Shown one piece after another: positions 9,449 through 15,872 of a DNA stretch of 32,024 nt. Position numbers and translations under genes: made by a program. The notes under the pieces were generated by a model. It was not told the origin of the DNA, did not search any database, and was given only the letters and a program-made list of their open reading frames with translations. The stretch's first letter is position 1. Every line of letters begins with the position of its first letter. Source of the DNA: Planctomycetaceae bacterium (lineage in GTDB: Bacteria > Planctomycetota > Planctomycetia > Pirellulales > Pirellulaceae); NCBI GenBank assembly GCA_007121535.1, contig SKKK01000592.1, forward strand, positions 1 through 32,024, read 5' to 3'.

Positions 9449-10735
9449 ATGAGCAAGGCTCAGCCGAAGTTTGTGACCAGTTTCCATTGGACTTCCCGCA
9501 GCGACGTGGGTATGCGGCGAGCGAACAATCAGGATTCGTGTAAGATCGTCCTGGCCGAAGACGAATCGTCCTGGCAGCAGCGCGGACACCTGCTGATCGT
9601 CGCCGATGGGATGGGGGCACATGCCGCGGGTGAACTGGCAAGCAAATTGGCAGTCAAAACGATACCGCATTTATACTATCATGATCGGGAACTAGCTCCC
9701 CGGGATGCGCTTCGTTCTGCGCTTACCCAAGCCAACGTCGAGATTCATCGCCGGGGGACAGCGAACCCAGACTTTCAGGGTATGGGAACTACTGCTAGTG
9801 TGCTTGCCTTGCTTCCACAAGGCGCCTTCGTGGGGCACGTGGGGGATAGCCGCGTTTATCGGCTGAGGAAAGGGCGTTTGGAGCAGTTGACGTTCGATCA
9901 CAGTCTACTTTGGGAAGTGCGGCGAAGTCATCGAATCAATGAGGATTCAGACTTTGCCAAGATGATCCCCAAGAACGTGATCACTCGGTCGCTGGGCCCC
10001 AACAGCCAGGTAGAGGTGGATATCGAGGGGCCATTCCCCCTTCAAAAGGGTGATCAGTTTCTGATTTGCAGCGATGGATTGACGGGCCAAATTCCGGATG
10101 AAGAATTGGCCGAGTTGATGCATGAGCTTGACCCGGAAGAGGGTGCTCAGTTGTTGGTCGATCTGGCCAATCTTCGCGGCGGGCCTGACAACATCACGTT
10201 GATCCTGGTGCAGCTACTGGACGACCGGATTCTGTCCGAAGACCACGGGACATCGTCGATCCAACGATCCCCTAGATCGGATGGTCTATCTTGGATGGCG
10301 ACCGTAGCAGCCCCGATCGCTGGCGTTTGCTTGTTGTTCGGGGTTCTGCTGCTGTTTGCGGGGCAAACGGTTGTCGCCGGGATTTTGACGGCGGCAGGAG
10401 TCTCTGTGCTAATCGGTGCCGTAATCGGTTGGTTTCGTCGGCGGATGATCGCCCAAGGACATGAAGCGGACGGGGAAGGGAATGCTGGGCAGGCGCCCTA
10501 CGCGGTCTGTCGGTGCGATCACGACGGCATGATGGCAGAGACCTTGTCCCGTACCTTGGACGAGTTGCGTCAGGCGGCGCGGGACGAAAACTGGAACGTG
10601 TCGTGGCAGGACATCGACACGTTGCGCGATACAGCCGCCAAGATGACCGAGGCACGCCAGTACCCGGATGCGATACGGCAATACGCCAAGGCGATCCGCC
10701 AGATGATGCAGCAGCTTCGTAAGCAGTCGCATTGA
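9449..10735 (+). CDS. PP2C-family serine/threonine phosphatase with two C-terminal membrane helices
   Basis: 428 aa. Residues 10-257 form a complete bacterial PPM/PP2C domain: RRANNQD (23-29), VADGMGAHAAGE (51-62), GHVGDSRVYRL (129-139), ICSDGLTG (206-213) and GGPDNIT (244-250). These aspartates bind the two metals of the active site, so it should dephosphorylate Ser/Thr phosphoproteins, as Stp-type enzymes do opposite Hanks kinases. Two hydrophobic helices (about 282-304 and 306-328) anchor it in the membrane. The cytosolic tail of about 100 residues is helical and TPR-like (TEARQYPDAIRQYAKAIRQMMQQL). No kinase gene is in the window. The start ATG has a weak ribosome-binding site; a TATAAT at 9304-9309 may be the -10 element. 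Confidence 0.9.
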   Translation: MSKAQPKFVTSFHWTSRSDVGMRRANNQDSCKIVLAEDESSWQQRGHLLIVADGMGAHAAGELASKLAVKTIPHLYYHDRELAPRDALRSALTQANVEIHRRGTANPDFQGMGTTASVLALLPQGAFVGHVGDSRVYRLRKGRLEQLTFDHSLLWEVRRSHRINEDSDFAKMIPKNVITRSLGPNSQVEVDIEGPFPLQKGDQFLICSDGLTGQIPDEELAELMHELDPEEGAQLLVDLANLRGGPDNITLILVQLLDDRILSEDHGTSSIQRSPRSDGLSWMATVAAPIAGVCLLFGVLLLFAGQTVVAGILTAAGVSVLIGAVIGWFRRRMIAQGHEADGEGNAGQAPYAVCRCDHDGMMAETLSRTLDELRQAARDENWNVSWQDIDTLRDTAAKMTEARQYPDAIRQYAKAIRQMMQQLRKQSH

Positions 10736-10823: not shown

Positions 10824-10852
10824 TTGACACTGGATGGCTGACTGTTTATCTT
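10824..10852 (+). promoter_or_regulatory. Predicted sigma70-type promoter of the cimA-valS operon
   Basis: A perfect TTGACA (10824-10829) and TATCTT (10847-10852) are separated by exactly 17 bases. A start near 10859 would put the leader peptide about 26 bases into the transcript. Confidence 0.7.
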
Positions 10853-10884
10853 CTAGCGGTTGTTTTTCCCCAGAAGGGTTTCCC

Positions 10885-10965
10885 ATGCGAAGTGCCGCTA
10901 CGACATCCCGACGATGCCTTTGCGTCTTAGTCGACGCAGTGGTCATTCGTATTGTGATTCGTTGA
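10885..10965 (+). CDS. Branched-chain amino-acid leader peptide (26 aa)
   Basis: ATG 10885 is preceded by AGAAGGG with a 6-base gap, a good ribosome-binding site. The 26-residue product ends in the run VLVDAVVIRIVIR: 9 of residues 14-25 are Val, Leu or Ile, with another Leu at 12. The TGA at 10963-10965 lies about 50 bases before the terminator stem. This composition and position match the leader peptides of enterobacterial ilv operons, where ribosome stalling at scarce aminoacyl-tRNAs prevents termination. The downstream genes make an isoleucine precursor and charge tRNA(Val), which fits exactly. It is too short to be a functional protein itself. Confidence 0.8.
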   Translation: MRSAATTSRRCLCVLVDAVVIRIVIR

Positions 10966-11013
10966 AGGCATTGGCCCCGGGGGAAACCTTGATCGCAAGC
11001 GACCGAGAACAAG

Positions 11014-11049
11014 CCCTGAGGCCCGGCAGGAAGGTCTCAGGGTTTTTTT
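11014..11049 (+). terminator. Intrinsic terminator inside the cimA leader
   Basis: A 10-bp stem (CCCTGAGGCC 11014-11023 with GGTCTCAGGG 11033-11042, one G-U pair) closes a 9-base loop and is followed by seven T (11043-11049). It lies 23 bases before the cimA start, so it can only act as a regulated stop. Confidence 0.9.
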
Positions 11050-11072
11050 GTGGTTTCTTGCAGGTAGCTACG

Positions 11073-12704
11073 ATGCGAACAGTCCAGATTTACGATACGA
11101 CGCTCCGTGATGGCACCCAAGGCGAGGGGGTCAGTCTTTCCTTGTATGACAAGCTGCAGATCACGCAGCGTTTGGATGAGATCGGAGTCGATTTTATCGA
11201 AGGCGGTTACCCGTTGTCCAACGAGAAGGACGTCGAGTATTTCGAACGGGTGCGGCAAATGGATCTGCGCCACGCCAAGATCTGTGCTTTTGGGATGACG
11301 CGTCGTCGAGGCATCTCGGCGCGTGAAGACGGGGGGCTTCAAGCGTTGTTAGCAGCCGAAACGCCCGTCTGCACCATCGTGGGCAAGACCTGGGATTTCC
11401 AAGTCAAAGACGTGCTGCGCGTGTCGTTGGACGAGAATCTGGATATGATCGCCGATTCGATTCGGCTGTTGACCGGCGCCGGCCGCCAGGTTTTTTACGA
11501 TGCCGAGCACTTCTTCGATGGCTGGAAAGCCAATCCTGACTATTCGGCCAGGACGATTCGGGCGGCTGCCGAAGCCGGTGCGACGTTAGTGGTGCTGTGT
11601 GACACCAATGGCGGAAGTTTACCCGAAGAAATCGATCGGATGACTCGCCAAGCGATCGAGACACTCGCTGCCCTGAACGTACCAGTAGGCATCCACTGTC
11701 ACAATGACGGGGAATTGGCCGTTGCCAATTCGCTGGCGGCGGTCGACGCGGGCGCGGTGCAAGTCCAAGGGACGATCAATGGGTTGGGCGAACGTTGTGG
11801 TAATGCCGATCTGATCTCGGTCATCTCCAATCTGGCGCTGAAGAAGAAGGGTTATCAAGTCTTGGATGACGCCGGCTTGCAGCACCTGACGCAGGTATCG
11901 CGTTACATCTATGAAACAGCGAACCTGAATTTGCGGAACAATCAGCCGTTCGTCGGGCTCAGCGCTTTTGCTCACAAAGGTGGCATGCACGTTCATGCCG
12001 TGCATCGTGCTTCGTCTTCCTACGAACACATCGATCCGGCGGTGGTAGGCAACGAGCGGCGTTTTCTCGTCAGCGAACTGTCCGGCCGTTCCAACATCGT
12101 GGCCATGACCGTCAAGCACAACGTGCGGCAAGACCGCGAACTGATGGACCGCATTCTGGCGGAAGTCGTACGCTTGGAGAACCGCGGGTATCAATTCGAA
12201 GCGGCCGAGGCCTCGTTCGATCTGTTGGTCAAGAGGTGCACCGGCACCTTTGTGCCTCATTTTGAATTATTGAAATACCATGTCGAGGTGATAGCCGACT
12301 CGGGCCGCGAGGTATTGACCGAGGCGACGGTCAAATTGCGAGTGGGCGAGGAAACTCGGCACGACGTGGCCGAGGGGGACGGCCCGGTCAACGCACTGGA
12401 CGCCGCCCTGCGAAAAGCACTCAACGGACGTTACCCGAACCTGAACCAGATGCATCTGATGGATTACAAGGTGCGCGTGGTCAATTCGGAAGCGGGCACG
12501 GCAGCCCGCATCCGCGTGTTCATCGAGAGCCGCGACGACCACGACCTCTGGGGAACGGTCGGCGTCAGTGAGAATATCATCGAGGCCAGTTGGTTGGCGC
12601 TGGTCGATGCGATCGAGTACAAACTGTACAAAGATCACGTTCCGCCGCCCAGCCCGAGCGTTCAAGAGTCGCCATCCTCCGCCGGTATCGCCAACGAAAC
12701 TTGA
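11073..12704 (+). CDS. cimA: (R)-citramalate synthase
   Basis: 543 aa. It condenses pyruvate with acetyl-CoA to (R)-citramalate, the threonine-independent entry to isoleucine synthesis. The TIM-barrel domain opens with YDTTLRDGTQGEG (residues 7-19, metal and substrate binding) and contains GIHCHNDGELAVANS with the H208/H210 metal ligands, then GTINGLGERCGNADL. After a linker, residues from about 395 form a LeuA-type regulatory domain (LLKYHVEVIADSG, EATVKLRVG), which in relatives binds the feedback inhibitor. Size and NGLGERCGNADL fit the CimA branch rather than LeuA, though 2-isopropylmalate or homocitrate synthase are the alternatives. Start: ATG 11073 begins the conserved MRTVQIYDTTLRDG; the in-frame extension to 10860 crosses the terminator. 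It precedes valS by 18 bases. Confidence 0.9.
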   Translation: MRTVQIYDTTLRDGTQGEGVSLSLYDKLQITQRLDEIGVDFIEGGYPLSNEKDVEYFERVRQMDLRHAKICAFGMTRRRGISAREDGGLQALLAAETPVCTIVGKTWDFQVKDVLRVSLDENLDMIADSIRLLTGAGRQVFYDAEHFFDGWKANPDYSARTIRAAAEAGATLVVLCDTNGGSLPEEIDRMTRQAIETLAALNVPVGIHCHNDGELAVANSLAAVDAGAVQVQGTINGLGERCGNADLISVISNLALKKKGYQVLDDAGLQHLTQVSRYIYETANLNLRNNQPFVGLSAFAHKGGMHVHAVHRASSSYEHIDPAVVGNERRFLVSELSGRSNIVAMTVKHNVRQDRELMDRILAEVVRLENRGYQFEAAEASFDLLVKRCTGTFVPHFELLKYHVEVIADSGREVLTEATVKLRVGEETRHDVAEGDGPVNALDAALRKALNGRYPNLNQMHLMDYKVRVVNSEAGTAARIRVFIESRDDHDLWGTVGVSENIIEASWLALVDAIEYKLYKDHVPPPSPSVQESPSSAGIANET

Positions 12705-12722
12705 AAACGGATCATCCCAACC

Positions 12723-15700
12723 ATGCCGAACACGTTCACTTCCGAATCCCTGCCGAATCGTTTCGACTACCACGAAGCTCGCCAACGTCTGTACGCCTGG
12801 TGGGAGGAACAAGGGTACTTTCATGCCCGCCCGAACAGCGGACGTGAACCGTTCGTGATCGTGATCCCGCCGCCCAATGTCACCGGGGCTCTGCATCTGG
12901 GACATGCGCTGAACAACTCGCTGCAGGACATCCTGATCCGCATGAAGCGGATGCAGGGATACGAGACGCTGTGGATGCCGGGCACCGACCATGCGGGCAT
13001 CGCAACGCAAGCGGTGGTCGAGCGTCGATTGAAAGAAGAAGAGAATAAGACCCGGCACGACCTGGGCCGCGAACAATTGGTCGAAAGAATCTGGCAGTGG
13101 AAGTCGCAGTACGAGTCGCGAATCCTGAGCCAGTTGAAGCAGATGGGCTGCAGTTGCGATTGGCAGCGCACGCGATTCACGCTGGACGATGTCTGCGCTC
13201 GCGCGGTCCGCAGCACGTTCTTCGACCTGTTCTGCAAGGGTTTGATCTATCGCGGCAAGCGGCTAGTGAACTGGGATACGTTCCTGCAGACGGCGGTCAG
13301 TGACGACGAGGTGTTTCACGAGGAAGTAAAAGGCAACTTTTGGCACTTCCGGTACCCGATCATCGATCCGCAGCCCGGCGAACCGACGCACGTCACGATT
13401 GCGACCACGCGTCCCGAAACGATGCTGGGCGATACGGCCGTGGCCGTTCACCCCGATCCGGCCGCTGCGCTGGAGCAGAGCGAACGGCTGCTGATCGACA
13501 AAAGGGAGAAAGCCCCCGCGCGCGAACGTGACGAGATCCAGCAGCAGATCGACCAGATCCGCCAACGCCGCCAACAGATCCTTCCGGAACTCGAGAAGCT
13601 GCGCGATATGGCTCGCGACGGACGCCGCCTGCTGCTGCCCTTGTTGAATCGCGAGATCCCGCTGGTCATGGACCCTTGGGCCAAGCCTGAATTGGGCAGC
13701 GGTTGCGTGAAGATCACTCCGGCCCACGACGCGAACGACTACGAGGTGGGACGTCGTCAGGATCTGCCGATGATCAACATCCTGAATCCCGACGGGACGT
13801 TGAACGCGAATGCGGGTCCGTATGAAGGGCAGAGTATCCCGGCGGCACGCAAGCAAGTCGTAGCGGATCTCCAGGCAGCCGGGCTGGTGGCGGAAATCGA
13901 AGATCGCTTGATCGATCTGGCTCATTCCGATCGCAGCAAGACGCCGATCGAGCCGTACCTGGCCGACCAGTGGTTCGTCAAGATGGACCAGCTTGCCCAA
14001 TCGGCCATGGACGCCGTCCGGGACGGTCGCGTGCGAATTCTGCCTTCGCGGTACACCAAGGGCTACTTGGATTGGCTCGGCGAAAAACGCGATTGGCCGG
14101 TCAGCCGTCAGTTGTGGTGGGGACACCAGATCCCGGTGTGGTCGACCACCGTGCCCTCGGATCAATGGAATGATTTGCGCGATCGCATCGGCATTCCGGA
14201 AGCGGTGAACGCAGACGGTCTGTTTCAACTCGTGGATCAACCCTTTGTGGCGGGCCAGATCAGCGAAGGGCCGAATCCGGACGAGATCACGGTTTACCTG
14301 TGCGTCGCTCCGGGGCACGAATCCTTGGAGCGGCAATTGGAACAGGCCGGGTTGCAGCAGGAGCAAGACGTGCTGGACACCTGGTTCAGCTCGGCTTTGT
14401 GGCCCCATTCGACGATGGGTTGGCCCGAACGGACGGATGAATTGGAACGCTTCTATCCGACCAGTGTGCTGATCACCAGCCGCGACATCATTACCCTGTG
14501 GGTGGCTCGCATGGTGCTGATGGGCTTGAACAACATGGGCCAGGTGCCGTTCCGGGACGTATTCATCCATCCGAAGATCCTGGATGGTTACGGTGAAACG
14601 ATGTCCAAAAGCAAGGGCAACGGCATCGATCCGCTGGACGTGATCGATAAATTCGGCGCCGACGCTCTGCGTTTCGGCATGGCCCAACTGGCGACGCCGA
14701 CCCAGGACGTGCGGTTGCCGGTCCAGTTCGAATGTCCTCATTGCGACGCGTTGATCGACCAGACCAAGAAGAATCGCGAATTGGCTCGCATCCGCTGCCC
14801 GAAATGCGGCAATGAGTTCGGGACGCAGTGGGCGCGCAGCGAGGCCGATCGTGCTTTGCCTCGCGGCGCGGCGGTCAGCGAGCGCTTCGAAGTGGCTCGG
14901 AATTTCTGCAATAAGTTGTGGAACGCGTCCCGCTTTGCCCTGCTGCACCTGAACGGGTATCAGAGCGGGCCGGTTGTCGAAACGGACCTGGCAATCGAAG
15001 ATCGTTGGATTCTGAGTCGTTTGGCGACGGTGACGCAGCAGGTGACCGAAGCGTTGGAGGGCTATCGTTATGCGGATGCCGCTCGCTACCTGTACGATTT
15101 CGCGTGGGACGAATTTTGCAGCTTCTACGTGGAAATGCTGAAGAGCCGTTTCCAAGACGAGCGCCAGCGGCCTGCGGCCCAACGCATCCTGGCTCATACT
15201 CTGGACGTGCTGCTGCGTTTGCTGCACCCGATGATCCCGTTCATCACAGAGGAAGTCTGGCAGTTGCTGGGACGGGTTGCGGCGGAGCGGGGGCTGACCG
15301 AGCCCACAGCGGCCAGCCCCAGCATCATGATCGCCGATTGGCCGGTCGCCGACGCGTCGCAGCAGGATGCAGAGATCGAAGAGCGTTTCGCCAGTTTTCA
15401 AGCGGTGTTGGGCGCTCTGCGCGAGATCCGCAGCCGTCAAAACATCCCCCCGAAGACGCCGGTCGATTTCAGCGTCCGATGCGATTTGCAGACCAGCCAA
15501 TCGTTACAGCCCATGGCGGGCTACTTCGCCTCGATGGCCAACGCAACCGCCATCGCCTGGGGTGTCGACGTGCAGCCGCCGCCGACGCACGCGGCCATCA
15601 GCTTGCCGAAAGCGGAAGTCTTCGTCGATCTGCAAAACTTCATCGATGTTGATGCCGAGATCGCTCGCAACGAAAAGCTGCTCGAAAAATTGGCCGGGCA

Positions 15701-15872
15701 GATCCAAGGCAAACAGACGAAACTGGCCAACGCCAATTTCGTCGACCGTGCCCCACCCGACGTCGTCAGTCGGGAACGCGAAAGCCTGCAACAACTGCAG
15801 CAACAACTCGGCGCCGTCGAGACCACACTGGCCAAACTGCAGTCGGGGTCGGGGTCAGGTCTTGACATTTAA
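12723..15872 (+). CDS. valS: Valyl-tRNA synthetase
   Basis: 1049 aa, somewhat long for the family. Class I signatures are present: HIGH as HLGH (58-61, in PPPNVTGALHLGHALN) and KMSKS as TMSKS (626-630, in GETMSKSKGNG). The editing domain has the threonine-rich TTRPETMLGDTAVAVHP and GSGCVKITPAHDANDYEVG. The anticodon-binding region begins NFCNKLWNASRFAL, and the C-terminus ends in the coiled-coil arm usual for ValRS. Two insertions stand out. One is a charged helical segment of about 50 residues in the editing domain (about 245-297). The other is a zinc-ribbon-like block with C671-x2-C674 and C692-x2-C695 after KMSKS. The final residues and the stop codon come from an intergenic repeat. Co-transcribed with cimA. 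Confidence 0.96.
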   Translation: MPNTFTSESLPNRFDYHEARQRLYAWWEEQGYFHARPNSGREPFVIVIPPPNVTGALHLGHALNNSLQDILIRMKRMQGYETLWMPGTDHAGIATQAVVERRLKEEENKTRHDLGREQLVERIWQWKSQYESRILSQLKQMGCSCDWQRTRFTLDDVCARAVRSTFFDLFCKGLIYRGKRLVNWDTFLQTAVSDDEVFHEEVKGNFWHFRYPIIDPQPGEPTHVTIATTRPETMLGDTAVAVHPDPAAALEQSERLLIDKREKAPARERDEIQQQIDQIRQRRQQILPELEKLRDMARDGRRLLLPLLNREIPLVMDPWAKPELGSGCVKITPAHDANDYEVGRRQDLPMINILNPDGTLNANAGPYEGQSIPAARKQVVADLQAAGLVAEIEDRLIDLAHSDRSKTPIEPYLADQWFVKMDQLAQSAMDAVRDGRVRILPSRYTKGYLDWLGEKRDWPVSRQLWWGHQIPVWSTTVPSDQWNDLRDRIGIPEAVNADGLFQLVDQPFVAGQISEGPNPDEITVYLCVAPGHESLERQLEQAGLQQEQDVLDTWFSSALWPHSTMGWPERTDELERFYPTSVLITSRDIITLWVARMVLMGLNNMGQVPFRDVFIHPKILDGYGETMSKSKGNGIDPLDVIDKFGADALRFGMAQLATPTQDVRLPVQFECPHCDALIDQTKKNRELARIRCPKCGNEFGTQWARSEADRALPRGAAVSERFEVARNFCNKLWNASRFALLHLNGYQSGPVVETDLAIEDRWILSRLATVTQQVTEALEGYRYADAARYLYDFAWDEFCSFYVEMLKSRFQDERQRPAAQRILAHTLDVLLRLLHPMIPFITEEVWQLLGRVAAERGLTEPTAASPSIMIADWPVADASQQDAEIEERFASFQAVLGALREIRSRQNIPPKTPVDFSVRCDLQTSQSLQPMAGYFASMANATAIAWGVDVQPPPTHAAISLPKAEVFVDLQNFIDVDAEIARNEKLLEKLAGQIQGKQTKLANANFVDRAPPDVVSRERESLQQLQQQLGAVETTLAKLQSGSGSGLDI

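Follow-up and report, generated by a model that had tools for sequence, protein, structure and literature searches.

The DNA upstream of the citramalate synthase gene cimA in a Planctomycetaceae bacterium very probably encodes a ribosome-mediated transcription attenuator responsive to charged tRNA-Ile and, where the valine--tRNA ligase gene valS belongs to the operon, also to charged tRNA-Val. The anatomy, conservation, codon specificity, coevolving arms and geometry of the attenuator were determined by computation in the window (the whole analyzed stretch of 32,024 nucleotides) and at other planctomycete loci. An initial annotation of the window had proposed a TTGACA-N17-TATCTT promoter, a 26-codon leader with its own Shine-Dalgarno sequence, and a 10-bp terminator with seven T before cimA, and all of these elements are present where it had placed them:

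10824–10852, + strand: sigma-70-type promoter-like site TTGACA-N17-TATCTT (consensus scan)
10872–10878, + strand: Shine-Dalgarno-like AGAAGGG of the leader, preceding the leader ATG at 10885
10885–10965, + strand: leader peptide ORF, 26 codons plus TGA (ATG 10885, TGA 10963–10965)
10973–10982, + strand: antiterminator arm GGCCCCGGGG, complementary to the terminator 5' arm
10988–11007, + strand: hairpin CTTGATCGCAAGCGACCGAG, predicted antiterminator tip, in the window clade only (fold, alignment)
11014–11049, + strand: intrinsic terminator with a 10-bp stem (11014–11042), a 9-nt loop and T7 (sequence, folds); 5' arm CCCTGAGGCC at 11014–11023, 3' arm GGTCTCAGGG at 11033–11042, T7 at 11043–11049
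11073–12704, + strand: cimA, citramalate synthase, ATG at 11073 (NCBIfam TIGR00977, 670 bits, cut-off 450)
12723–15872, + strand: valS, valine--tRNA ligase, beginning 18 nt after cimA (NCBIfam NF004349 and TIGR00422)

As in known attenuators, an intrinsic terminator lies between the promoter-like site and the structural gene and is preceded by a short ORF with a start signal that is rich in codons for amino acids of the pathway. The leader peptide, MRSAATTSRRCLCVLVDAVVIRIVIR, ends in VVIRIVIR, with its last Ile at codon −2. Over a region of 1.1 kb, the consensus scan found two promoter-like sites, compared to 0.2 expected from shuffles, and it missed the window terminator because the 9-nt loop exceeds its loop limit of 8. 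The segment 10858–11056 folds with −78.9 kcal/mol (z = −3.3), and none of 200 shuffles was equally stable. In an alignment, the leader start, the Val/Ile-rich end of the ORF, the terminator and the promoter hexamers were all found again in four relatives (L003, L004, L005, and L033); across the five aligned sequences the AAGG of the leader Shine-Dalgarno is invariant and the hairpin at 10988–11007 nearly so. The cimA reading frame is open from 10860, and 10860–11072 might accordingly be read as an N-terminal extension of CimA and not as a leader region. This is scarcely credible, as a strong terminator would then fall within the coding region, the open frame has 615 codons in the window versus 557–563 in L003–L005, where it ends nearer to the cimA start, and the Ile/Val pattern lies in another frame and is absent from the extension.

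We infer the transcription start, leader translation, termination and starvation response of the attenuator as follows. Transcription would begin near 10859 and run into the leader ORF. With plentiful Ile and Val, the ribosome would reach the stop codon and cover the antiterminator arm at or just after this codon, and with the arm covered the terminator at 11014–11049 would form ahead of cimA. If charged tRNA-Ile (or tRNA-Val) is scarce, the ribosome would wait on the Ile/Val codons and leave the arm free to pair first with the terminator 5' arm, and the polymerase would continue into cimA-valS. The predicted antiterminator fold (10972–11024; −22.3 kcal/mol) is available before the terminator 3' arm exists, and the terminator hairpin alone has −19.9 kcal/mol. 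At equilibrium, the fold of 10972–11048 favours the terminator even with a free arm (−29.2 versus −22.3 kcal/mol for the antiterminator), and therefore antitermination would need to be kinetic. The leader Shine-Dalgarno region (10872–10884) of the window clade is also able to pair with 10980–10990 beside the antiterminator arm. The leader Shine-Dalgarno sits in this helix in the predicted full-length fold, and the pairing of the leader start region with 10980–10990 is a candidate protector helix (1:2) in the window. According to the fold model, it could close off the antiterminator arm if the leader is untranslated.

Conservation was assessed at 170 cimA loci from 60 relatives (30 loci), named genomes (80 loci) and another 60 stretches from the class, which were reduced to 160 distinct loci. 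A terminator was detected at 118 of the 160 and none at the remaining 42. Leaders with at least four Ile/Val among the last 20 codons or fewer occurred at 105/160 loci, and with at least five at 96/160. Under a stricter test (last 16 codons, ATG and GTG starts only), 80 of the 118 loci had a leader compared to 1.9% of dinucleotide shuffles. In the first set of loci, from which L001, L002 and L032 were excluded for this test, 82/108 had a terminator and 26/108 had none; an ORF with at least five Ile/Val in its last 14 codons was present at 44 of these 82 loci versus 1.0% of shuffles. Inspection of 20 extra cimA upstream regions (L152–L171), which lie outside the 160 distinct loci except for genomes fetched a second time, revealed a terminator in 16 and a leader with at least four Ile/Val in nine. 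In other classes of the phylum, terminators were found at 5/20 loci and a terminator together with an Ile-rich leader at only 3/20. Among 93 loci with a leader, a promoter-like site matching at least 10 of 12 positions occurred at 40 (0.5% of shuffles) and one matching at least 9 of 12 at 76 (5.2% of shuffles), and the −35 element generally lies some 188 nt ahead of the terminator. Judged from the sequences, the recurrence of the leader elements in relatives and across the phylum is more than chance. The relatives thus carry an Ile/Val leader and a terminator upstream of cimA, as the initial annotation had anticipated, and the loss of the leader frame or of its branched-chain amino acid (BCAA) codons, named there as evidence against an attenuator, was not encountered, as Ile/Val leaders recur.

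Two further features of the leaders were observed. In four Rhodopirellula/Stieleria-like loci (L051, L052, L053, and L075), an Ile/Val ORF ends 73–86 nt upstream of the terminator; this distance is greater than at other loci and exceeds the counting limits, and hence these ORFs are not in the leader counts. In the leaders of L093, L111, L205, L215, L219, and L220, some of them Gemmatales-like, the Ile/Val codons adjoin a shared AQGVR stretch, possibly a fixed element of the RNA or of the peptide.

The leader codons are specific for the amino acid. In their last 16 codons, cimA leaders contain on average 3.46 Ile (shuffles 0.91), 2.11 Val (1.05), and 0.86 Leu (1.36), whereas leuA leaders contain 6.37 Leu (shuffles 1.70), 0.47 Ile and 0.58 Val in 16 codons, and 18 of 19 leuA leaders have at least five Leu. 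The leuA upstream regions were 20 chosen from the matches in relatives, and the eight genes checked were all 2-isopropylmalate synthases. Among the sensor codons that had initially been proposed for the window, Ile, together with Val, is conserved, but Leu is not, and a role of tRNA-Leu is therefore unsupported in cimA leaders. Upstream of leuA in the window's own genome (L112; G000:C161), a leader MMLLLDLRLLLAPVEAGC is followed by a GC-rich hairpin and T7, an element that is, going by its sequence, a predicted Leu attenuator. ATT accounts for 68% of 420 Ile codons in the leaders versus 27% of 2574 in the cimA genes, which prefer ATC (94 loci, p = 1e-16), and this preference of the leaders could partly stem from non-coding base composition. 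Likewise, CTA makes up 34% of the Leu codons in leuA leaders versus 3% in cimA genes. The codon data fit a slow decoding of Ile and argue against Leu having any function in cimA leaders.

Control genes were scanned over the 800 nt before the profile match, whatever the position of the gene in its operon, with spot checks of strand orientation at four loci. No hairpin-T site was found upstream of ilvB in 20 loci (23 fetched, three partial ones omitted) or upstream of hisG in 27 of 28 fetched loci. At trpE, 23 loci (28 fetched, five weaker paralogues omitted) gave three weak sites, all of them lacking a Trp leader, and ileS had no such element in 10/10 loci, with 14 of 24 genomes lacking an ileS match at 1e-200.

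A terminator ahead of genes for amino-acid synthesis and tRNA aminoacylation would also suit a T-box or metabolite riboswitch that senses tRNA or a ligand directly, with an incidental ORF. This is highly improbable, because the codons enriched in the ORF vary with the amino acid of the downstream gene, and no Rfam family, including the T-box covariance model, matched the window or 20 related loci at gathering score. In addition, one planctomycete genome covered by a 2008 T-box survey had none (PMC2494555). A different possibility is that the same leader acts by translational control, reinitiation or nascent-peptide arrest, as its codons could influence the cimA start 107 nt past the leader stop. 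We consider this unlikely, given that a T-run terminator is located between leader and cimA and that the leader peptides differ among clades, with a common composition but no motif.

For a transcription attenuator, the antiterminator helix has to be exclusive with the terminator, and the arm swaps as well as the window fold indicate that it is. Terminator arms were swapped between loci, with a segment further upstream as control (83 loci; L001, L032, L037, and L041 excluded). The terminator 5' arm pairs with the segment at the leader end with −17.2 kcal/mol, compared to −12.2 kcal/mol with shuffled segments. Native arm pairs were better than swapped ones by 2.98 kcal/mol (difference −2.98, p = 1.2e-10), while the control region showed no effect in the same 83 loci (−0.13 kcal/mol, p = 0.75). 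In 66 representatives chosen below ~78% CimA identity, the native pair was favoured in 56 (p = 2e-9; control region p = 0.37). The terminator 5' arm thus coevolves with the antiterminator arm. With the Ile/Val leaders and terminators in relatives, the coevolving arms lend the attenuator reading of the initial annotation good comparative support. They also bear on the view that the terminator simply belongs to the upstream gene, with a separate promoter and an accidental leader ORF. A phosphatase-like gene upstream of the promoter-like site does end at 10735, and short ORFs are common. However, Ile/Val-rich leaders are far more frequent than in shuffles, a promoter-like site precedes the terminator at most loci with a leader, the two arms coevolve, and Leu replaces Ile/Val before leuA, making this view very improbable.

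The geometry was modelled at 96 loci with the assumption that the ribosome covers 12 nt past the A-site codon, a distance that PMC4833913 also gives for the stop codon. The antiterminator arm spans −5 to +11 around the leader stop codon (medians), and Ile codons are commonest at leader codons −10 to −6. A ribosome whose A site holds codon −8 leaves −17.5 kcal/mol of arm pairing energy free, compared to −3.8 kcal/mol when it holds the stop codon. At least 80% of the arm energy is kept at 95% of the loci with the ribosome at codon −8, at 46% with it at codon −5, and at none with it at the stop. In this model, a ribosome at the stop would mask the arm, and one on the earlier Ile codons would leave most or all of it free. 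The last Ile codon and the arm are separated by a median of 14 nt (quartiles 11–16; 12 nt in representatives), and at this gap a ribosome that has reached the final Ile codon would often overlap the arm edge by 1–3 nt. The position of the arm correlates with that of the last Ile codon (rho = 0.54 at the 96 loci), and it does so in 50 representatives as well (rho = 0.32, p = 0.02), with rho = 0.47 among the 44 whose arms are strong. In the window clade, both the arm (+9 to +21) and the codon run (to −2) are displaced 3', and in the window itself −10.4 of the −17.9 kcal/mol of arm pairing would remain with the ribosome at the stop. On geometry only, with the assumed 12-nt lead, the position of the ribosome would decide which helix forms.

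The Val codons in the leaders follow the presence of valS, which was counted as downstream when within 1.5 kb after cimA; 11 loci with too little DNA after cimA were set aside. Leaders contained 2.91 Val codons with valS downstream (78 leaders) versus 0.94 without (18 leaders; p = 1e-7), at equal numbers of Ile codons (4.14 versus 4.39). If the ORF was picked by Ile alone, Val was 2.83 with valS (70) and 0.85 without (20). A phylogenetic regression (PGLS) of Val on valS gave +1.39 ± 0.53 (p = 0.01), and +1.34 ± 0.54 (p = 0.015) for ORFs picked by Ile alone. The link depends on about seven valS changes on the tree, and an independent-pairs test was not significant (2.6 the same way and 0.5 the opposite of six pairs). 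Unexpectedly, the Leu count also differed slightly between leaders with and without valS, in the direction opposite to Val (p = 0.01–0.02). We consider it somewhat probable that planctomycetes possess an attenuation regulon of their own for the entry steps cimA (isoleucine) and leuA (leucine), in which leader codons follow the operon content, with Ile if cimA is alone and Ile plus Val if valS is in the operon. If so, a single leader would read two tRNAs for a two-amino-acid operon, and the joining or leaving of valS would amount to a natural experiment on the gain and loss of Val codons in the leader. Our results would extend leader-peptide attenuation to planctomycetes, with cimA and leuA as the likely regulated steps, and suggest that a very short attenuator design with only one arm over the stop codon is possible. 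In the open literature, to which our search was confined, we found no report of a planctomycete leader-peptide attenuator of this kind.

The enterobacterial ilv and leu operons are controlled by leader-peptide attenuators, and E. coli leu uses rare CUA codons. They have in common with planctomycete cimA a leader ORF with pathway codons, slow codons, and alternative antiterminator and terminator structures. The planctomycete system differs in its phylum, in its target cimA (with valS), and in an antiterminator arm that usually spans the leader stop codon; a counterpart of the conserved protector helix (1:2) is a candidate in the window fold only. Among actinobacteria, PMC1262725 describes terminators and leader ORFs with runs of BCAA codons before ilvB, and a leuA leader with Leu codons. 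The same paper reports a pseudoknot (LEU element) at leuA and results of mutational tests in Streptomyces that did not fit classical attenuation. The BCAA-codon leaders with terminators (at ilvB there) and the Leu-codon leuA leader resemble those of planctomycetes, whereas planctomycete ilvB has no leader element (0/20). For Firmicute hisS, PMC2965389 describes leader-peptide attenuation before an aminoacyl-tRNA synthetase gene; a term search of its main text found no mention of planctomycetes or cimA. The hisS leaders differ in their His codons, genes and phylum, but, as predicted for cimA-valS, they place an attenuator before an aminoacyl-tRNA synthetase gene outside the Proteobacteria and Actinobacteria.
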